Source of the DNA: Flavobacterium branchiarum
Lineage (GTDB): Bacteria > Bacteroidota > Bacteroidia > Flavobacteriales > Flavobacteriaceae
Assembly (NCBI RefSeq): GCF_030409845.1
Contig: NZ_JAUFQQ010000003.1
Location: 1,798,001 to 1,862,000, forward strand
Direction: 5' to 3'
DNA length: 64,000 bases
Shown here: piece after piece, positions 5,638 through 61,433 of the stretch
Numbering within the stretch: the stretch's first letter is position 1
How the letters are laid out: each line of letters starts with the position of its first letter
Translations under genes and position numbers: made by a program
Notes under the pieces: generated by a model
The model's database searches: none
The model's input: only the letters and a program-made list of their open reading frames with translations
Told to the model about the DNA's origin: nothing

Positions 5638-6780
5638 TTATTTTTTGTTAATTACTTGGGCAACTTTAGCAGTCGATTTCTCTGGCTGAATTACTTGTCC
5701 TTCCTGAAGTTTGTCGATTCCGCTTAATACAATTTGATCTCCCGTTTTTACACCATCTTTAATAAGATAATCTGTTCCCATTTTGCCCATTATTGTGATT
5801 GGCATTTTGTTTACTTTATTGTCTTTATTTAGTGTATAAACAAATACTTTGTCTTGCATTTCGATAGTTGCCGATTGTGGAATCAAAATAGCATCGTCAT
5901 GCTGAATCCCTAAACGGATTTTACCTGTATTTCCTGAGCGTAATGTTCCATTTGAATTTGGGAAAGTTGCTCTAAGTGTTATTGCTCCGGTGTTTTTATC
6001 GAATTGTCCATCGACCATGTCTATTTTTCCAAGTTGTGCATATGCATTACCATCGGCTAGAATTAGAGAAACAGGAGGTAAGTTTTTGATTTTATCCCCT
6101 ATTGTATTTCCTGAATATTGAGTTTTGAAATTGATGAAATCAGTTTCTCCTAATGAGAAATACGCATACACTTGATGTACATCTGATAGTTTTGTTAGTG
6201 GTTCAACATCAGATGCCGATACTAAACTTCCTTGTTTTTTTGGAAGTCTTCCGATATATCCGTTTACAGGAGCTGTAATTGTAGTATAGCTTAAATTAAT
6301 TTTTGCTGATTCTACCATTGCTTTAGCTTGCTCAATATTTGCAACTGCGACTCTGTGGGAAGCTTTTGCGGTTTTTAATTGATAATCTGAAACTACTTTG
6401 TTTTGTACCAGAGGAGTTAGTTTGTCAATTTCTAATTGGGTGTTGATTAATGTCGCTTCTGCTGCGTGAAGGTTTGCAAGTGCATTGTTCAGTTGCTCAC
6501 GAAATGGACGATCGTTTATTTTAAACAGGGATTGTCCTTTTGAAACATAAGCACCTTCATCGACTAAAACTCGGTCTAGATTACCACCTACTTGTGGGCG
6601 AATTTCAACATCTATTGTTCCTTGTATTGAAGCAGGATATTCTGAATCTGTTGTTGCATTTGTGTTTTTTATTGCAAGTACTGGTAATAAAGGGGCTGCA
6701 GGAGCTGGCGCTTGAGCCTTATCTGCGCATCCCATTACAACTAGAGCAAGTAGGATACTGGTTATGAATATTTTTTTCAT
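5638..6780 (-). CDS. RND efflux periplasmic adaptor lipoprotein (AcrA/HlyD family)
   Basis: The adaptor joins the RND pump to the outer-membrane channel. The preferred start at 6780 gives 380 residues beginning MKKIFITSILLALVVMGC, a lipoprotein signal with the cysteine at residue 18. An upstream in-frame ATG (6855) would put 25 polar residues before the signal peptide and is less likely. The barrel-sandwich/lipoyl region contains GTIDVEIRPQVGGNLDRVLV and ITAPVNGYIGRLPKKQGSLV, with a hairpin of helices between them. It is the first gene of the leftward pump operon and lies directly downstream of the four-operator region at 6874-7145. Expression is therefore expected to respond to the TetR protein encoded upstream. 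Confidence 0.94.
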   Translation of the reverse strand: MKKIFITSILLALVVMGCADKAQAPAPAAPLLPVLAIKNTNATTDSEYPASIQGTIDVEIRPQVGGNLDRVLVDEGAYVSKGQSLFKINDRPFREQLNNALANLHAAEATLINTQLEIDKLTPLVQNKVVSDYQLKTAKASHRVAVANIEQAKAMVESAKINLSYTTITAPVNGYIGRLPKKQGSLVSASDVEPLTKLSDVHQVYAYFSLGETDFINFKTQYSGNTIGDKIKNLPPVSLILADGNAYAQLGKIDMVDGQFDKNTGAITLRATFPNSNGTLRSGNTGKIRLGIQHDDAILIPQSATIEMQDKVFVYTLNKDNKVNKMPITIMGKMGTDYLIKDGVKTGDQIVLSGIDKLQEGQVIQPEKSTAKVAQVINKK

Positions 6781-9910: not shown

Positions 9911-10040
9911 ATGTGAAAACGTAAAACGTAAAACGTAAAACGTAAAACGTAAAACGTAAAACGTAAAACGTAAAACGTAAAACGTAAAACGTAAAACGTA
10001 AAACGTAAAACGTAAAATGTGAAAACGTGAAAACTTGAAG
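9911..10040. repeat. Heptamer tandem array (14 exact ACGTAAA units with variant flanks)
   Basis: Bases 9919-10016 are exactly 14 copies of ACGTAAA. The core is bracketed by ATGTGAAA at 9911-9918 and 10017-10024, then ACGTGAAA and ACTTGAAG. The two minus-strand frames that stay open across it (9811-10080 and 9899-10099) are by-products of the 7-bp period and are not genes. It lies between two convergent genes. Confidence 0.9.
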
Positions 10041-14488: not shown

Positions 14489-15775
14489 TTAGTTAATTTC
14501 CTGACCAGCGATGTAACTTAGTTCTTCAAGGTTTTTATTAAGGTCTTTTTTAGAATTTAGCAGTATTGATTTGTTTTCTATATAGGCCTCTACAAAATCA
14601 AGATATTCTAATATACTGGTATTTCTTTGCATGAAGTTTTTACGATAGCTTTCTAAAAGTTTATCCAAATCGCCTTCATAATTAGATTCAACACTTTCGT
14701 ATAGTTTTTTGGTAACGATTAAATCTTCATAGGCTTGTAATACTTCAGCTTGTACGCTAATTGCTTTTTCTTCGGTTAGTAATTTACCTTGATCGATAGC
14801 AATTTTTGCAGCTTTAATATTTCCTTGGTTTCTATTAAAAAATGGAAGATCCATAGCAAAACCTACACCAACGAAATCGTTCATTAAACTAGCACCACGA
14901 TCATAACTAACCCCAAGAGTAACATCAGGAGTTCGCATTGCTTTTTCGTATTTGTATTTTTTTGTATTATATTCATTTCCTAGTTTAAGGACTTTCATAT
15001 CAGGTCTGTTTTCTACAGCCGATGCCATAAGATTACCTAAGTTTATGTTATCAATGTTTTTATTATCAGGAACAAAACCATCATTAGTAAGCTTAATGTA
15101 GCTCGTTGCAGGAAGGTTCATTAGGACTTTTAATTCTTTTTGTAATGAATTGTTTTCCTTTTTTAGGTCGGTGATTTCTTTTAAGAATTGTAATTCAGAT
15201 GCCTTTAATCTAATGTATTCTCCTTTACCAATATTTCCCTGTGTAACTTGATTGCTATAGGCTTTGAGTAATGTTTGCATCGAAGCAAGTTGTTTTTGGT
15301 AAACGGCTTCTTGAGCTTGAACAAATTGTAGTTCAGTTAGATTTCCTCTAAACTCAATTTTCAGATTGCGTAAAAAAGTTTTAAAGTATTCTTTGGCAAT
15401 ATCTACGCCTACTTTTTCCATGGCAATCATCTTTTTTCTTTTTCCAGCAGTTTGGATAAGTTGCTCCAGCTCGGCATTAACTTGAGATGTAGTACCAAAA
15501 TTTCCCCATAAAGGAGGTAATTTTTGTGCTGTAGCATTACTCCAAAGATTTATCTCTGAAACAGTAAGCGTTGGATTTGGCCATAATTTTGCCTGAATAA
15601 CTTGTGCATCAGCAATATCGATGTTTAGCTTTTCGGAAATAAGAGAAAGATTCTTATCTAGAAACAAAGCCTCGGCCTGTGTTCGAGAAAGAACAATTGT
15701 ATCGTTTTTTGTATTGATTTGTGCCACAGCTTTGTGTGATACAATAACGAGTAGGGTTAAGATTATACGTTTCAA
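14489..15775 (-). CDS. Metal efflux outer-membrane factor (CzcC-like TolC family)
   Basis: The 428-residue protein has a cleavable signal peptide (MKRIILTLLVIVSHKAVA, then QINTK), not a lipobox. Two OEP repeats follow. The first contains AKLWPNPTLTVSEINLWSNA, typical of CzcC-type proteins, and the second contains GVGFAMDLPFFNRNQGNIKA. It is the first gene of the czcCBA-like operon. Its start codon is preceded at 22 bases by a TAGCTTTG -7 box. It completes the tripartite metal exporter with the next two genes. Confidence 0.9.
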   Translation of the reverse strand: MKRIILTLLVIVSHKAVAQINTKNDTIVLSRTQAEALFLDKNLSLISEKLNIDIADAQVIQAKLWPNPTLTVSEINLWSNATAQKLPPLWGNFGTTSQVNAELEQLIQTAGKRKKMIAMEKVGVDIAKEYFKTFLRNLKIEFRGNLTELQFVQAQEAVYQKQLASMQTLLKAYSNQVTQGNIGKGEYIRLKASELQFLKEITDLKKENNSLQKELKVLMNLPATSYIKLTNDGFVPDNKNIDNINLGNLMASAVENRPDMKVLKLGNEYNTKKYKYEKAMRTPDVTLGVSYDRGASLMNDFVGVGFAMDLPFFNRNQGNIKAAKIAIDQGKLLTEEKAISVQAEVLQAYEDLIVTKKLYESVESNYEGDLDKLLESYRKNFMQRNTSILEYLDFVEAYIENKSILLNSKKDLNKNLEELSYIAGQEIN

Positions 15776-22839: not shown

Positions 22840-22918
22840 ATTTTCCAAAGATAGACTATTGTTTTGCTTTTGTGTTATTGATTAGGAAAGAAATTTATTC
22901 AGTAGGCTCTTGCTTGAG

Positions 22919-23290
22919 CTATAGATTGATATAAGAAATAGATTTGTTCAATTGCCTCCTGCTTAAGCTAGGCATTGATAGTGGAAGACAATTATTCAAT
23001 AGGCTCCTGCTTCAGCTGGAGTCTATAGATTGATATAAGAAATAGATTTGTTCAATTGCCTCCAACTTTAGTTGGAGTCGAAAGGATTATTAGTTAATAA
23101 GGCTTTAGCCAAAATAATGAATGATTTTGGCTAAAGCCCTTAAATTTTATGTTTTTTATTCCTCCAGATGAAGCAGGAGGCAATTAAAAAAAAGAGCTAG
23201 TATTTCTGAAAACAATTAATGATTTTAGCTAAGCCTTTATATTTTGTGTTTTTTATTCCTTCAGATGAAGCAGGTGGCAATTAAAAAAAC
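22919..23290. repeat. Cluster of intergenic direct and inverted repeats
   Basis: A 41-bp unit is repeated exactly at 22919-22959 and 23023-23063 (it begins CTATAGATTGATATAAG). GGCTTTAGCCAAAAT (23101-23115) and ATTTTGGCTAAAGCC (23124-23138) form a perfect 15-bp hairpin. A unit around AGATGAAGCAGGAGGCAATT occurs at about 23155-23187 and, with changes, at about 23250-23282. Its complement also appears in the GCCTCCTGCTT motifs on the left side. The cluster fills the 480-base gap upstream of the DUF2199 gene's 3' end and contains no gene. Confidence 0.8.
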
Positions 23291-40185: not shown

Positions 40186-40420
40186 AGTATTCAGTCTCAG
40201 TATTCAGTCTCAGTATTCAGTCTCAGTATTCAGTCGCAGTGTTCATTCTCAGTATTCAGTCGCAGTGTTCAGTCTCAGTGTTCAGTCGCAGTATTCAGTC
40301 TCAGTATTCAGTCTCAGTATTCAGTCTCAGTATTCAGTCTCAGTATTCAGTCTCAGTATTCAGTCTCAGTCTCAGTGTTCAGTATTCAGTCTCAGTCTCA
40401 GTCTCAGTCTCAGTCTCAGT
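40186..40420. repeat. CAGT-word tandem array (mostly a 13-bp AGTATTCAGTCTC unit)
   Basis: The array is built from CAGT plus two or three bases: CAGTATT, CAGTCT, CAGTCG, CAGTGTT. The commonest period is 13 bp (7+6), degenerating to a 6-bp period (CAGTCT) at the right end. Two plus-strand frames (40160-40465 and 40239-40493) are open only because of the repeat and are not genes. Confidence 0.9.
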
Positions 40421-40655
40421 TCTGAGTCGAAGAGCAGTCGCAGTTTACAGTTTACAGTTTTTTAATTGTAAACTGTTTTTACTGCGACTGTAAACTGAAA
40501 ACTGAATACTGCGACTGTTGACTTTGTATTCTCAGTCTCAGTTTACAGTTTTTTAATTGTAAACTGTTTTTACTGCGACTGTAAACTGAATACTGTAAAC
40601 TGAATACTGTGACTGTAAACTGAAAACTGAAAACTGCGACTGTAAACTTTGAACC
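40421..40655. repeat. Duplicated 52-bp hairpin unit within an ACTG-word array
   Basis: A 52-bp unit occurs identically at 40448-40499 and 40539-40590. It contains CAGTTTACAG and GTAAACTG, which form a hairpin around an A/T loop. Around it the words are inverted relative to the array on the left: ACTG preceded by CG, TAA, AAA or AAT. The left (CAGT) and right (ACTG) arrays are therefore reverse complements in vocabulary. No gene is seen up to the acyl-CoA dehydrogenase start. Confidence 0.88.
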
Positions 40656-51685: not shown

Positions 51686-52936
51686 ATGGAAAAAACAAAA
51701 ATAGAAATACCCCCATTTTCTTCTTATCAAAAATATATTATTGTCTTATTGGCGCTTTTACAGTTTACTGTAATTCTCGATTTTATGGTTATTTCTCCAC
51801 TAGGGGATATACTAATGAAAAAACTTGATATGACTACCGCTAACTTTGGGTTGACTGTTTCAGCTTATGCATTTAGTGCTGGTATATCTGGATTACTTGC
51901 AGCCGGTTTCGCTGATAAATTTGACCGAAAAAAGTTGTTAGTTTTCTTTTATACAGGATTTATTATAGGAACTGTTTGTTGTGCTTTAGCAACCAATTAC
52001 GCTTTGTTACTTGCAGCTAGAATTGTAACTGGACTTTTTGGTGGTGTTATCGGTTCTATATCATTGGCTATCGTAACCGATTTATTTGTGATTCATCAGC
52101 GTGGTCGTGTGATGGGGTTTATACAAATGGCGTTTGCTTCTAGTCAGATTTTAGGAATTCCTTTAGGGCTTTATTTTGCCAATCATTGGGGATGGCATTC
52201 GTCTTTTTTAATGATTGCTGGTTTAGGGATTCTTATACTTGTTACAATTGTAATCAAGATGAAACCAGTAGTAAAACACCTTGAATTTCAGTCTGATAAA
52301 AGTCCTTTATTACATTTATGGCATACTTTAAGTAATAAGGATTATCAAGTTGGTTTTCTGGCTATTGCATTTTTATCAATTGGCGGTTTTATGCTACAAC
52401 CTTTCGGAAGTACTTTTTTGGTAAATAACATTAAAATTAGCCAATTAGATCTACCAATGATCTTTTTCTATACCGGAATTTCAGTACTTTTTATAATGCC
52501 TATTGTAGGGAAACTAAGTGACAAGGTTAACAAGTTTTGGTTGTTTACAGGTGGTTCTTTATTAGCAATTGTAATCATATTAATTTATACTAGTCTTGGT
52601 CCTGTTCCTTTATGGCAAATTGTGGGGCTTACTATGATTATGTTCATGGGGCTTATGAGTCGTATGGTTCCTGCAACAACACTTAATACTGGTATTCCTG
52701 AATTGAAAGATCGTGGTGCTTATATGTCTATAACTTCTTCGATGCAACAAATAGCTGGTGGTATTGGTGCCATATGTGCTGGATTGATTGTTCATCAAGA
52801 AACTAAAACGTCACCATTAGAAAATTATGATGTTCTAGGTTATGTCGTCTCTGTTGTTTCTATTTGTTCGATTTTCTTTATTTGGAGAGTGAATCAATTG
52901 GTTAAGTCGAAAGAGAAGAGTGGGAATATGGAATAG
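51686..52936 (+). CDS. MFS transporter (drug/sugar efflux type)
   Basis: The 416-residue protein has twelve membrane segments. Motif A between TM2 and TM3 is AGFADKFDRKKLLVF, and LLLAARIVTGLFGGVIGSIS is TM4. TM1 (IIVLLALLQFTVILDFMVIS) contains the DFMV sequence typical of arabinose/drug efflux MFS proteins. It is the third gene of a TetR-headed operon, so it likely exports the compound sensed by TetR. The stop codon lies three bases before a heptamer array. Confidence 0.92.
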   Translation: MEKTKIEIPPFSSYQKYIIVLLALLQFTVILDFMVISPLGDILMKKLDMTTANFGLTVSAYAFSAGISGLLAAGFADKFDRKKLLVFFYTGFIIGTVCCALATNYALLLAARIVTGLFGGVIGSISLAIVTDLFVIHQRGRVMGFIQMAFASSQILGIPLGLYFANHWGWHSSFLMIAGLGILILVTIVIKMKPVVKHLEFQSDKSPLLHLWHTLSNKDYQVGFLAIAFLSIGGFMLQPFGSTFLVNNIKISQLDLPMIFFYTGISVLFIMPIVGKLSDKVNKFWLFTGGSLLAIVIILIYTSLGPVPLWQIVGLTMIMFMGLMSRMVPATTLNTGIPELKDRGAYMSITSSMQQIAGGIGAICAGLIVHQETKTSPLENYDVLGYVVSVVSICSIFFIWRVNQLVKSKEKSGNME

Positions 52937-52938
52937 TG

Positions 52939-53071
52939 AGATGTTAGATGAAAGATGTGAGAGAAAAGAGAAAAGAGAAAAGAGGATAGAGAAAAGATGT
53001 GAGAGAAAAGATGTGAGATGTTAGAAGTAAGATGTTAGAGAAAAGATGAAAGATGTGAGATAAAAGAAGTC
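52939..53071. repeat. 19 in-phase AGAnnnn heptamers
   Basis: The 133 bases divide exactly into 19 consecutive heptamers, all beginning AGA. The variable four bases come from a small set: AGAGAAA (6 copies), AGATGTG (4), AGATGTT (3), AGATGAA (2), and AGAGGAT, AGAAGTA, AGATAAA and AGAAGTC once each. It starts directly after the MFS stop codon and abuts an ACTG-word array. Confidence 0.92.
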
Positions 53072-53218
53072 TGAATACTGAGACTATATACTGCAACTGA
53101 AAACTGCAACTGTCCTTCGGCTCCGCCCAGGATGACACTGCGACTGCGACTGAATACTGCGACTGTCCTTCGGCTACGCTCAGGATGACACTGCGACTGA
53201 ACACTGAGACTAAGATAC
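53072..53218. repeat. ACTG-word array with two embedded TCCTTCGGCT palindromic insertions
   Basis: The words AATACTG, TATACTG, CAACTG, AAAACTG, CGACTG and AGACTA alternate. Two related inserts, at about 53113-53137 and 53165-53189, read GTCCTTCGGCT...CAGGATGACA. A related element in the other orientation, GTCATCCTGAGCGGAGTCGA, occurs at 60079. No gene is present between the MFS and nadB stops. Confidence 0.85.
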
Positions 53219-53246
53219 TACAACCTAAATTATAGATCAAAAAAAC

Positions 53247-53280
53247 AAGCCACTTGTGAATCTTTACAAGTGGCTTTTTA
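53247..53280. terminator. Intrinsic terminator between convergent MFS and nadB genes
   Basis: AAGCCACTTGT (53247-53257) pairs perfectly with ACAAGTGGCTT (53266-53276), loop GAATCTTT, with A and T runs on either side, usable in both directions. Confidence 0.88.
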
Positions 53281-53395
53281 GTTGTAATTAAATTTTTATT
53301 AGAGGTAATTTTAGTTCGTGATTTTTTCGACTAAAATGGTATTTTACCTCGAATAGAGTTTGAGATAAAGGTTTTGGAAATTATATTTATTCGAC

Positions 53396-54919
53396 TTAAT
53401 AAGCTGGATTTTTTTCGAAAAAATGGCGCATATTACTTTCAATGACAATTTTAGCAACAGTAAGCATGTTTGTAAATTCTATTAGTTGCGTTGTAATTTT
53501 TTGCTTTTCATATAGTAATGAGACAGTTTTCATTTTCATAGTTTCCATTTTGTCTAATAGTTTTCGGAAATCGGTGTCTTTATTTGTATAATATAATGTC
53601 ATTAACGATTGTAATTCGGTCTTTAATTGAATAAAATAATCAGTATGTATATTAATTAAGGGTTCGTCAAAATCTTGCATTATTTTTTTTGATGAAAAAG
53701 ATAGTCCATCGATAGTTTTCTCAATCTGATTTGAAGCCTGGTGCGCAAAAACTAAAGCTTCTAATAAGGAGTTTGAAGCCAACCTATTTTTACCATGTAA
53801 TCCTGTTCGAGAACATTCTCCTATAGCGTATAAGTTTTTTACATTGGTTTCAGAGTTTTTGTTGACATTGACACCTCCACATTGATAATGAGCAACAGGA
53901 ACAATAGGAATTAAATCTGTTTTTGGATTTAAACCAATTATTTTGCAATAATCTGTAATAGACGGAAAGTGGTTATAAAATTCTTCAAAATCCAAATGGC
54001 GACAATCTAAATAAACATGTTGTTTTCTTGAAGTTTCCATTTCTTCGCTTATGGCTTGCGAAACAATATCTCTGGTTGCTAATTCTCCGCGGGTATCGTA
54101 CTTGAAGATAAAACGTTTTTCATCTTCATTAACGATATGAGCTCCAAACCCCCTAACAGCTTCTGATATTAAAAAGAAAGGATTTTTATCGCCCTCATAC
54201 AGTGCTGTGGGATGAAATTGGATGTATTGTATGTCTTTTATTAAAGCTCCTGCTCTTGATGCTATAGCAATTCCATCGCCTGTAGCAATTTCTGGATTTG
54301 TAGTGTTTTTAAACAGCTGTCCGCATCCGCCCGTACTTAATACAATGGTTTTTGCTTGTATGTATTTTATTCGGTTATTGATTTTGTCACAATAAAAAGC
54401 TCCCGTACAGTAAGGATTTCCTTTGTTTTTTTTGGTATTTATATCAATAACCAAATGATTTTCTAATAGTGTTATATTAGATAGATGGCTTAATGTTTTT
54501 ATAAGGTTTTTTTCGATTTCTGCTCCAGATATATCCTTGTGATGCAAAATTCGGTGTTGTGAATGACCGCCTTCTAAACCTAAATTCCAAATTCCTGATT
54601 TATCTTTATCAAAAGAAACGCCAATATCAATTAGCTCTTTTAATCGCTCAGGCGCTTGGTTAATTACCATACTAACGATTTCTTTATCACAGAGTCCGCC
54701 GCCAGATTGTATAGTATCTTGAATGTGTTTATCAAAACTATCCTCAATATGATCTGTAACAACAGCAATGCCACCTTGTGCCATTTGAGTATTAGAGTTT
54801 TGAGCTTTTTCTTTGGTCATTATTACAATAGACAAATCGGGACGTTTTCGCGCCGTTTTTATGGCAAAAAACAAACCTGCTATTCCTGAACCAATTATAA
54901 GTATATCAGCTTTCTTCAT
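53396..54919 (-). CDS. nadB: L-aspartate oxidase
   Basis: This is the first enzyme of de novo NAD synthesis, oxidising L-aspartate to iminoaspartate with FAD. The protein has 507 residues, with DILIIGSGIAGLFFAIKTAR as the FAD site. NTQMAQGGIAVV and RILHHKDISGAEIEKNLIKT are characteristic of NadB, and HPTALYEGDKNPFFLISEAV and AIGECSRTGLHGKNRLASNS form the catalytic fumarate-reductase-like domain. It is 19 bases downstream of nadA on the same strand. No nadC lies in the window. Confidence 0.97.
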   Translation of the reverse strand: MKKADILIIGSGIAGLFFAIKTARKRPDLSIVIMTKEKAQNSNTQMAQGGIAVVTDHIEDSFDKHIQDTIQSGGGLCDKEIVSMVINQAPERLKELIDIGVSFDKDKSGIWNLGLEGGHSQHRILHHKDISGAEIEKNLIKTLSHLSNITLLENHLVIDINTKKNKGNPYCTGAFYCDKINNRIKYIQAKTIVLSTGGCGQLFKNTTNPEIATGDGIAIASRAGALIKDIQYIQFHPTALYEGDKNPFFLISEAVRGFGAHIVNEDEKRFIFKYDTRGELATRDIVSQAISEEMETSRKQHVYLDCRHLDFEEFYNHFPSITDYCKIIGLNPKTDLIPIVPVAHYQCGGVNVNKNSETNVKNLYAIGECSRTGLHGKNRLASNSLLEALVFAHQASNQIEKTIDGLSFSSKKIMQDFDEPLINIHTDYFIQLKTELQSLMTLYYTNKDTDFRKLLDKMETMKMKTVSLLYEKQKITTQLIEFTNMLTVAKIVIESNMRHFFEKNPAY

Positions 54920-59127: not shown

Positions 59128-59988
59128 GTGGAACGATTTATTCAGCATACTCCTTTATTTATTCGGCATTTCACAACCGAAATATGGCCGTTTCCAGTTC
59201 ATAATCACAATCATTTTGAGTTAGTTTTTATTCATTCGGGCAGTGGATTGCACCAGTTAAATGGCGGGGAAGTCCCGTATAAAGGTAGCTGTGTGTTTTT
59301 GTTATGTCCATCTGATTATCATCTTTTTATAATAGAAAAGAAAACAGAGTTCAGCGTATTGAAATTTAATAATCGCTATCTCGACGGAACTTCATCGGAG
59401 ACCGCTAAAAACGAATGGAATAAAGTTCTAGATCAATTGCTTGGGATAAGTAGTAATTTGGATGGGAAGTTGGTTGATTCTCCTCAAGAGTTAGAAAAAA
59501 TTAGTCAGCTCATGCGATTAATTGTTGACGAATGGGATGGAGGAAGTCAGAATGGTTCTCATGAAGTACTTCTTTATTTAATCCGAAGTGTATTTGCAAT
59601 TATAAAGAAAAATGCCTTTCACTCATTGGGTTCTAATGCGATTTTAAATGAAGGGCTTCTTGTCGGAATTATGAATTATATTCACAAAGAAATACGTACC
59701 CCTGCTAATTTAAATCTCAAAGTTTTATCCGCTCATTTTAATATGGCGCCCAATCATTTAAGTAGTTTGTTTAAAAGACAAACGGGTGGATCTATAAAAA
59801 AATACATTGACGATTATAAATATAGATTGATTGAAAACCGTCTTAAACATAGCACTGTTTTGATGAAAGAAATAAGTAATGAATTTGGCTTTTCAGATGT
59901 CAGTCATTTTAATAAATTCCTTAAAAAACAAACTGGACTTAATCCTAAAGAGGTGAGGAGTTTAGTTTTTAGTAATCAGTCTCAGTGA
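59128..59988 (+). CDS. AraC family transcriptional regulator (3' end inside a CAGT array)
   Basis: GTG start at 59128, 286 residues. The cupin sensor begins with WPFPVHNHNHFELVFIHSGSG. The two HTH motifs are LSAHFNMAPNHLSSLFKRQT and MKEISNEFGFSDVSHFNKFL, then LNPKEVRS. Upstream TATTTTTG (59102-59109) is a promoter -7 box. The last five codons and the stop (S-N-Q-S-Q-stop) are CAGT-array sequence, so the original C-terminus has been replaced. It is divergent from the MFS/phosphoesterase operon, its probable target. Confidence 0.9.
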   Translation: MERFIQHTPLFIRHFTTEIWPFPVHNHNHFELVFIHSGSGLHQLNGGEVPYKGSCVFLLCPSDYHLFIIEKKTEFSVLKFNNRYLDGTSSETAKNEWNKVLDQLLGISSNLDGKLVDSPQELEKISQLMRLIVDEWDGGSQNGSHEVLLYLIRSVFAIIKKNAFHSLGSNAILNEGLLVGIMNYIHKEIRTPANLNLKVLSAHFNMAPNHLSSLFKRQTGGSIKKYIDDYKYRLIENRLKHSTVLMKEISNEFGFSDVSHFNKFLKKQTGLNPKEVRSLVFSNQSQ

Positions 59989-60323
59989 TCAGTTTTCAGT
60001 CTCAGTAATCAGTCTCAGTAATCAGTCTCAGTAATCAGTTTACAGTTGCAGTTTACAGTCTCAGGAATCAGTTACAATGTCATCCTGAGCGGAGTCGAAG
60101 GACTGTATCTCCAATCTTGTCTTTCTGAGGGACGAAGAAACCCACATGTAGCTCTTTATACTTTGACGAATAGCTTGATGAGATTCTTCCTTCGTCAGAG
60201 TGATAAAATTGAGAATATGAACCTTCGTACTAATGAAGTTTTTAGTGACAGTATTCAGTCTCAGTATTCAGTCTCACTCTCAGTTTTTAGTCTCACTCTC
60301 AGTTTTTAGTCTCAGTATTCAGT
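59970..60323. repeat. CAGT-word arrays and a dispersed palindromic element
   Basis: CAGTAAT/CAGTCT words run from about 59970 to 60066. GTCATCCTGAGCGGAGTCGA (60079) and the CTTGTCTTTCTGAGGGACGA element (60117-60215) follow. Then CAGTATT, CAGTCT and CAGTTTTTAGTCTC words run from about 60250 to 60321. No gene is seen here; the plus-strand frame at 60046-60309 is a repeat artefact. Confidence 0.85.
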
Positions 60324-60706
60324 CTTTATTCTTTATTCTTTATTCTTTATTCTTTATTCTTTGTTCTTTATTCTTTGTTCTTTATTCTTTATTCTTTGTT
60401 CTTTGTTCTTTGTTCTTTATTCTTTATTCTTTATTCTTTGTTCTTTATTCTTTGTTCTTTATTCTTTGTTCTTTATTCTTTGTTCTTTATTCTTTGTTCT
60501 TTATTCTTTATTCTTTATTCTTTATTCTTTATTCTTTATTCTTTGTTCTTTATTCTTTATTCTTTGTTCTTTGTTCTTTATTCTTTGTTCTTTATTCTTT
60601 GTTCTTTATTCTTTGTTCTTTATTCTTTGTTCTTTATTCTTTGTTCTTTATTCTTTGTTCTTTGTTCTTTGTTCTTTGTTCTTTGTTCTTTGTTCTTCCT
60701 TCTCAT
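60322..60706. repeat. 55-unit heptamer array, TTCTTTA/TTCTTTG
   Basis: 385 bases stay in one 7-bp phase throughout. There are 52 units of TTCTTTA or TTCTTTG (60329-60692) with GTCTTTA before and TTCTTCC, TTCTCAT after. Read on the other strand the units are AGAATAA and AGAACAA, so they share the AGA-anchored form of the array at 52939. Three plus-strand frames up to 166 codons stay open across it but only because of the repeat; they would encode LFFxLxS repeats. Confidence 0.93.
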
Positions 60707-60800: not shown

Positions 60801-61361
60801 TTATTTAATTGTTATTGGAACTTCAACAGTTGTTTTGTCCCAACCAATCGTTAAATTAGCTACTGAACCTTTATTGGTAAAAGCTATTGATAATGCTTCA
60901 ATAGGAGTTGATACAGTTTTAACAGGAACAACTACTCTCGCAATATCTTTGCTTTCATCATAAGCATAAGCTCCCCATAAATCAGTTTCGTTATTGATAA
61001 TAATAGTCCATTTGTCTTTTTCAGGAATAGCAAATAAGCTATAAGTTCCCGCTGGAATATTTACTCCACCAACTGTAACTGGTTTGTAAAATTTGATTTC
61101 GGTATTTTCATTGGCTCCAAGACGCCAAACTTTACCAAATGGTATTAGTTCTCCAAAAATGGTACGTCCATTTGCTGAGGGTCTTGAATAAACGACTTTG
61201 ATAACAGCAGTTGGCGTATCTGTTTTTTTAGATTTAACTGCTTTATGCGGATAATAGCTAATGTCAACTGGGGTTTTGTCCAAAGGAGCAAAATTGACAT
61301 CTTGTGCGTTAACCGAAAATGCTGTCAATAAGATGATTAATAGTAAATTTAAGTTTTTCAT
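60801..61361 (-). CDS. DUF2911 secreted protein
   Basis: From the ATG at 61361 the protein has 186 residues with signal peptide MKNLNLLLIILLTAFSVNAQ. The DUF2911 core is clear: KVVYSRPSANGRTIFGELIP, FGKVWRLGANENTEIKFYKP and NIPAGTYSLFAIPEKDKWTI. The longer frame from 61409 adds a hydrophobic stretch before the signal and is unlikely. The family is common in Bacteroidota and has no assigned function. It probably has its own promoter, since it follows the SDR gene by about 70 bases. Confidence 0.9.
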   Translation of the reverse strand: MKNLNLLLIILLTAFSVNAQDVNFAPLDKTPVDISYYPHKAVKSKKTDTPTAVIKVVYSRPSANGRTIFGELIPFGKVWRLGANENTEIKFYKPVTVGGVNIPAGTYSLFAIPEKDKWTIIINNETDLWGAYAYDESKDIARVVVPVKTVSTPIEALSIAFTNKGSVANLTIGWDKTTVEVPITIK

Positions 61362-61433
61362 ATTCATGATTGTTATATGTTTTACACAAAGTAAAAAAAT
61401 AATGAACATAAATCATATTATTTCTTTTCTTTT

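Follow-up and report, generated by a model that had tools for sequence, protein, structure and literature searches.

Flavobacterium psychrophilum has been typed with a set of intergenic heptamer variable-number tandem repeats (VNTRs), the FpVNTR set, and in the available part of that report eight of the twelve listed units are 7 nt long and most of the loci are intergenic (PMC4501049). FpVNTR8 is among eight loci that varied between isolates, FpVNTR3 and FpVNTR12 were invariant in the first 11 isolates, and one isolate was unchanged after 12 passages (PMC4501049). By our own matching, three of the twelve loci are AGA heptamers by rotation or reverse complement, as rotating AGATTTT gives FpVNTR12 (ATTTTAG), rotating its reverse complement gives FpVNTR3 (AAATCTA), and rotating the reverse complement of AGATTTC gives FpVNTR8 (AATCTGA). 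The same part of the text presents the FpVNTRs as single-unit typing repeats and does not describe anchor-plus-variable words, stop anchoring or a strand rule (PMC4501049).

TAACTGA direct repeats occur in Beggiatoaceae, Cyanobacteria and some Bacteroidetes, and the available text also mentions heptamer assemblages in other Bacteroidetes, beside TAACTGA in some, and one TAACTGA set directly past a stop codon (MacGregor 2015, PMC4679880). Like the arrays considered here, these direct repeats are 7 nt long, lie between genes and occur scattered among related genomes, and there are relatives that have the same genes but no repeats. However, TAACTGA is one fixed word, and in the principal genome described most copies lie directly before start codons (PMC4679880), whereas we find many words with a fixed AGA and 65 of 111 arrays at sense stops. 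Chloroflexus aurantiacus carries dispersed (GATAGRA)n heptamer satellites, and in our own reading GATAGRA rotates to AGATAGR, which is AGA-initial as here, but these are from another phylum, use nearly one unit, and are not described with respect to stop-codon placement in the part of the text available (PMC6749651). REP/BIME elements are known with REP-associated tyrosine transposases and, like the AGA arrays, are extragenic and repeated (PMC2817692), and the available part of a table of REP-transposase genomes includes two Flavobacterium (PMC12306157). A complementary TCT arm accompanies some AGA arrays, but the arrays are mostly single-armed and without a fixed palindrome, and the focal array has no palindromic unit (fold z -0.9 for the array alone).

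Heptamer VNTRs are therefore known in Flavobacterium, while a stop-anchored AGA heptamer class with a strand rule was not found described among the top-ranked papers of the open-licence literature searched. As the available FpVNTR, TAACTGA and GATAGRA texts hold no such class, we rate the AGA class as a variant of known repeats, and it is an unusually orderly form of that kind.

The array downstream of an MFS transporter gene

The window (the whole 64-kb stretch of DNA analysed here) had been predicted from its letters to contain 19 consecutive AGAnnnn heptamers in which a strict period and a fixed anchor are combined with a variable suffix. A direct parse of the 133 bp agrees, giving exactly 19 heptamers with remainder 0, every one AGA-initial and in phase, and the run is maximal as the neighbouring 7-mers on both sides are not AGA-initial (Table 1). 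The units are, in order, AGATGTT, AGATGAA, AGATGTG, AGAGAAA (three times), AGAGGAT, AGAGAAA, AGATGTG, AGAGAAA, AGATGTG, AGATGTT, AGAAGTA, AGATGTT, AGAGAAA, AGATGAA, AGATGTG, AGATAAA and AGAAGTC; TAACTGA is not among these eight words. The further reading that this does not look like simple slippage of one unit also holds. The coding strand has 1 C in 133 nt, and the predicted fold of 52937-53075 (139 nt, -5.8 kcal/mol) indicates little RNA structure.

Table 1. Features of the locus around the focal array (window coordinates).
Feature	Position	Strand	Basis or remark
MFS transporter gene, 416 aa	51686..52936	+	ORF; MFS_1 PF07690, E 1.3e-49
AGANNNN array, 19 units	52939..53071	+	Starts 2 nt past stop codon of MFS gene
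Second word array (ACTGNN and ACTGNNN), with intermixed 6- and 7-nt units	53077..53213	+	Sequence reading; matches elsewhere in genome
TCCTTCGGCTCCGCCCAGGATGACA element, copy 1, within ACTG array	53113..53137		Sequence reading; 53-bp period
TCCTTCGGCTACGCTCAGGATGACA element, copy 2	53166..53190		Sequence reading
Intrinsic-terminator-like hairpin AAGCCACTTGT...ACAAGTGGCTTTTT	53247..53279	+	Inverted repeat, folded
Convergent neighbour, FAD-binding protein	53396..54919	-	FAD_binding_2 PF00890, E 2.2e-85

The MFS gene ends in TAG (52934-52936) and is followed by the AGA array, the ACTG array, the terminator-like hairpin and the convergent FAD-binding gene, which we take to be nadB-like. AGA and ACTG words are the two common families in this genome, the ACTG array here contains two TCCTTCGG...GGATGACA elements, and the terminator-like hairpin is the only inverted repeat in 52900-53340. 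When the focal spacer was used as a query it had 73 matches in the genome (itself included), mostly to the ACTG part. The genome is 5.0 Mb in 5 contigs, and the nearest records to the MFS gene are from Flavobacterium sp. ALJ2 (93%) and F. frigoritolerans (88%). The sole Rfam match in the window at the gathering threshold is a Flavo-1 RNA away from the focal array (RF01705, 26131-26208 on the minus strand, E 3.8e-15), and a search for tRNAs found none.

The original prediction had also compared the array with the short tandemly repeated repetitive (STRR) heptanucleotides of cyanobacteria, which are 7-nt tandem repeats between genes with each array largely one word, and for which we know of no stop-codon anchoring. 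The likeness in 7-nt tandem structure stands but is an analogy only, as the focal array has eight words in 19 units and its host is a Flavobacterium, judged by the MFS records and the Flavo-1 RNA, rather than a cyanobacterium; the heptamer repeats of Flavobacterium and other Bacteroidetes are closer.

AGANNNN arrays and other word families across the genus

Of 150 genomes in the genus, 107, this one included, have runs of at least six AGANNNN units, as counted with a start pattern which overlooks arrays whose preceding heptamer begins with A. A genome-wide search, as had been suggested for this array, gave 34 matches in this genome to one start pattern for at least five units (two overlap), and this pattern similarly skips arrays with an A-initial preceding heptamer, the focal array among them. 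Runs of eight units are present in 17 of 40 genomes, again including this one, so the array is not an artefact of one assembly, a possibility that had been named as a refutation.

We also surveyed 464 kb of this genome without presetting an anchor, covering the window and twenty stretches of 20 kb, and obtained 40 periodic regions, compared with none in Markov-simulated sequence of the same size. Seventeen of these are in tandem spacers, 15 in convergent and two in divergent spacers, and six are genic or mixed; divergent spacers are under-used, with two of the 34 spacer regions against 8.6 expected by spacer length (P(≤2) 0.004). Before merging, survey segments numbered 11, 10, 12 and 8 at lags 7, 8, 13 and 14, and 0, 3, 2, 1, 2, 4 and 2 at lags 5, 6, 9, 10, 11, 12 and 15, respectively. 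Several families, named by reading, share the combination of a fixed word and a variable part (e.g. AGANNNN, ACTGNN(N), TTAGANTN and CAAAGNNN), and other word families in the survey are pure units.

Further word-built sequences were seen in passing. The window contains a 55-unit AGANNNN array (60319-60703, minus strand, mostly AGAATAA/AGAACAA) which is sense to the gene at 60801-61409 and begins about 40 nt past a terminator-like T-run, and beyond it are CAGT words, i.e. ACTG on the strand of the AGA. Mixed 6- and 7-nt spacing, giving a 13-nt period, occurs in the ACTG/CAGT arrays at 40186-40652 and 59971-60314 as well as in that of Table 1, and an ACTG array follows AGA on a common strand and in a common spacer in L003, L038, L039 and L049, the two being interleaved in L047. 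The window also has a nearly pure AAAACGT array (about 17 copies, 9916-10034) in a convergent spacer about 28 nt past a stop, and tandem repeats of 49 bp and 97 bp with CTCCTGCTTAAGC and GAAGCAGGAGG words at 22877-23289. Long, near-pure octamer arrays occupy spacers in L092 (ACCTCTGA, about 33 copies, 15163-15431) and L100 (GATTTTTG, about 42 copies, 5814-6152). L054-L058 (G000 C5 2040007-2040780) has a direct repeat of about 200 bp in four copies, each TTTCGTAAGATTGGAGAAG-initial, with a related copy before them, and the five-unit AGA runs here are antisense to both adjoining genes. Genome G147 has 12 AGANNNNN octamer array starts (with words such as AGATTTCG, AGATTTAA and AGATTGAA), a period-8 version of the fixed-word design.

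Placement and orientation at stop codons

Arrays of at least six units were collected from 17 loci of G000 (not every matching place in that genome), 20 stretches of G090 (31 starts counted), 20 of G067 (35), 13 of G057 (14) and six of G066 (8), and from an additional 27 loci in other genomes. Dropping three genic arrays and three at contig or locus edges reduced the initial 120 to 114, and removing duplicates (the focal array, represented by L001 and the window, L032/L033 and L150/L221) left 111. Sixty-five of these 111 distinct spacer arrays, among which orthologous arrays are not independent, begin between -15 and +20 nt from a sense stop, compared with 14.0 for random placement, and none of 20000 simulations reached 65 (before dropping the three duplicates, 68 of 114 compared with 14.5); gene ends are those of our own hexamer gene caller and not of curated annotation. 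Taken set by set, the observed number exceeded every simulation for G000, G090, G067, G057 and the mixed set, but the preference was not significant for G066 alone (3 vs 1.3; 2182/20000).

Taking AGA on the coding strand as sense, tandem-spacer arrays which abut the upstream stop are sense in 46 cases and antisense in one, whereas those farther away are sense in 12 and antisense in 17 (Fisher p 2e-8), and in convergent spacers 24 arrays are sense to the nearer stop and two to the farther. At three G000 loci the arrays lie beyond a terminator-like site and are nonetheless sense. This bias is far above the AGA:TCT ratio of 382:248 in the 30 nt past the stops of called survey genes. The stop is TAG at 33 of the 65 abutting arrays compared with 115 of 582 background genes (20%, p 2e-7), because T plus AGA makes TAG, and in 15 of 68 abutting rows from the set before clean-up the array begins at distance -1, with the stop made from T and its first AG. 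The class thus has a preferred place at the 3' ends of genes and a strand rule there, and while the anchor-plus-variable structure that had been called unusual is real, the focal array is not a lone oddity but belongs to a genus-wide class.

Frame closure was counted within 42 nt for the 68 abutting arrays, the three duplicates included. On the AGA strand all three frames are closed in 42 and at least one in all 68, while on the reverse complement all are closed in 10 and none in 31. It should be noted that shuffling the suffix letters with AGA kept closed all three frames in 683 of 1360 cases, so the array words do only modestly better than composition predicts, and that in antisense arrays, likewise counted before the clean-up, all three frames are closed on the AGA strand in 11 of 25. 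Furthermore, 32 of the 65 abutting arrays begin at least 2 nt past an intact stop, so that they have no need to provide one, and these too are sense; the strand rule is therefore not accounted for by frame closing alone.

Turnover in orthologous spacers

We compared the spacers downstream of two genes in 30 genomes each, picked by protein and not by repeat; these genes are presumably tpiA and cysH, and the names cysD, araD and araA used below are likewise our assumption from the sequences. The tpiA 3' spacer has (AGATTTT)n between the stop and a terminator hairpin with n from 0 to 18, and at least three in-phase AGA lie near the stop in 11 genomes, one or two in 14 (some by chance) and none in five; G103 and G111 have a different word, GCCACAGATT. 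At least three in-phase AGA are found within 30 nt of the cysH stop in 23 genomes, two in three and none in four, with unit number differing between genomes, and in the genome of the window a CAGT family follows cysH in place of AGA. The focal array thus belongs with bacterial heptamer VNTRs both in the strict phase of its 7-nt units (19 of 19) and in the differing unit number of the class between related genomes (0-18 at tpiA).

In a syntenic trio (86-92% mean protein identity), where word-frequency scoring was dropped as too insensitive in favour of a side-by-side comparison of spacers with a longest copy of 110 to 420 nt, the araD-araA spacer has AGA words in one genome and GTTTCAG/CTGAAAC in the other two, and AGA words appear again after the araD stop in G005 (78% DNA identity) and G057. 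Spacers thus differ between species by whole units, and relatives hold other word families at one and the same spacer. We also note that across L120-L137 (120 kb each from three mostly syntenic species) several orthologous spacers differ in word-built sequence despite common flanking genes, with the words CTAAGNNN, GTTTCAR, ACATAGAA, CACGAATT and CAGATT.

The focal array itself was sought in the best 80 of 534 MFS relatives, and in none of them do the 40 nt around the stop contain three in-phase AGA. L288, the nearest of the relatives examined, has a matching downstream neighbour and, by eye, a similar terminator, but the array is absent. The focal array is therefore a young member of the class, or else one lost elsewhere.

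Retention of the AGA anchor

We simulated drift with seven equally mutating columns, unit duplication and loss, matched to the observed diversity. Three adjacent invariant columns arose in 0 of 4500 runs at duplication/mutation ratios of 0.5-2, 3 of 1500 at 4, 6 of 1400 at 8, and 3 of 373 at 16; as this is below 1% in each setting, ordinary drift of one unit is unlikely to leave a fixed anchor. In a six-unit unambiguous cysH-cysD module from 10 genomes, limited to rows at distance ≤3 and so a small test on related genomes, there was 1 mismatch in 180 anchor sites compared with 11 in 240 suffix sites. Looser comparisons gave 14/324 vs 61/432 (18 genomes) and 4/300 vs 80/400 (25 genomes), but in these the register search favours anchors by construction and we do not rely on them. 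Anchor changes do occur, as L197 has one unit with an altered anchor.

Origin and possible roles of the arrays

Chance in A-rich DNA, search bias or assembly artefact can be practically discounted for the class. The AGA pattern search does pick perfect anchors, and its built-in control pattern was uninformative because AGA reads the same backwards, but 200 order-2 Markov simulations of the window (plus strand) gave a longest in-phase AGA run of only two (163 runs) or three units (37 runs), the anchor-free survey found nothing in simulated sequence, orthologues picked by protein also show arrays, and period-8 AGA runs occur in 37 of 150 genomes compared with the 107 for period 7. The focal array is thus confirmed as real, and the chance rate which might have refuted it was not found.

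The reading we favour, with a probability of about 0.5, is that the array is a fast-turnover heptamer VNTR which settles preferentially at the 3' ends of genes. Such an array would begin from an AGA-containing sequence at or just past a stop codon and grow as replication or repair copies whole units in register, AGA being the register, so that units keeping AGA would remain in register and be copied on, those losing it would drop out, and the four-base suffix would drift freely. It would be tolerated in dispensable DNA, chiefly between stop codon and terminator. The coding-strand words (T|AGA, TGA, ATAA and GTAA) close reading frames. As 7 is not divisible by 3, their repetition can offer stops in all frames, so that gain or loss of a unit would shift the frame yet not leave an ORF open. 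Selection may then act against orientations that leave a frame open; the reverse complement closes fewer frames and almost never abuts a stop. We propose no gene-specific function for the array at the MFS gene, and it is probably not a switch for the particular gene upstream.

An alternative which we consider unlikely, while keeping it in view, is that AGANNNN arrays are a stop-anchored, strand-specific 3' element under selection, acting as a stop cassette that works in any frame, as an RNA tract of spaced triplets, or as both, with AGA held and the suffix and unit number free. The RNA part of this, where sense AGA repeats would form a polyvalent single-stranded 3' UTR tract for a putative RNA-binding protein or protect the 3' end, has a model in TRAP, which binds spaced (G/U)AG triplets. 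It fits arrays having AGA on the coding strand only beside stops, a fixed triplet with a variable spacer, little C (2.5% overall), a nearly unstructured focal array, and arrays lying ahead of the terminator both at tpiA and in the window, but is made doubtful by there being fewer than three in-phase units near the stop in 19 of 30 tpiA and 7 of 30 cysH orthologues, by the missing focal array in those best 80 of 534 MFS relatives, and by the variety of array-bearing genes and unit numbers (0-18). Similarly doubtful is a neutral, transcription-coupled expansion in which ribosome-free RNA past the stop would re-anneal to its template. As purine-rich RNA on pyrimidine DNA is stable, R-loops would promote repeat growth only in the sense orientation, and this agrees with the sense polarity and C-poor coding strand beside stops, with arrays sitting where ribosomes leave the RNA, and with the link between R-loops at repeats and instability made in the parts of the literature available. 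However, in tandem spacers polarity is lost more than 20 nt from the stop, where the RNA would still be naked unless a terminator intervenes, and this 12 to 17 split weakens transcription alone as the cause of polarity; the fixed anchor would also be left without explanation.

We regard as improbable that the arrays belong to REP-like intercistronic hairpins, spread or rebuilt as units, with AGA words in the 5' arm and TCT words in the 3' arm. Among abutting spacers, 9 of 45 tandem and 2 of 18 convergent ones have a subsequent in-phase TCT run of at least three units (e.g. L221, the same locus as L150, and L214), several other spacers have word-built hairpins, and fold z is below -2 in 10 of 45 tandem and 9 of 18 convergent spacers, part of these fold and TCT counts preceding duplicate clean-up. 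Such a run is nevertheless absent from 36 of the 45 and 16 of the 18, and with 11 of 63 in all we reject the idea that arrays generally form hairpins; for the focal spacer, folding is not better than that of shuffled sequence (z 0.4). The REP-type transposase domain PF01797 (Y1_Tnp) has matches in 108 of 150 genomes, this one included with three, but not in G016 and G045, which bear arrays, and such a transposase is therefore rejected as a requirement.

Many of the bacterial tandem repeats that have been studied are pure units at promoters or within genes. In contrast, these are arrays of fixed-triplet words which favour stops, where their strand bias is 46 to 1, while 20 nt farther on it has disappeared, and a bias limited to stops suggests a repeat-generating or repeat-filtering process tied to translation termination or to message 3' ends. 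What holds anchors fixed in variable repeats becomes directly testable in this genus, for which laboratory strains exist. If the arrays were a selected 3' element, Flavobacterium would have a repeat-based form of gene capping that any gene could gain and lose.
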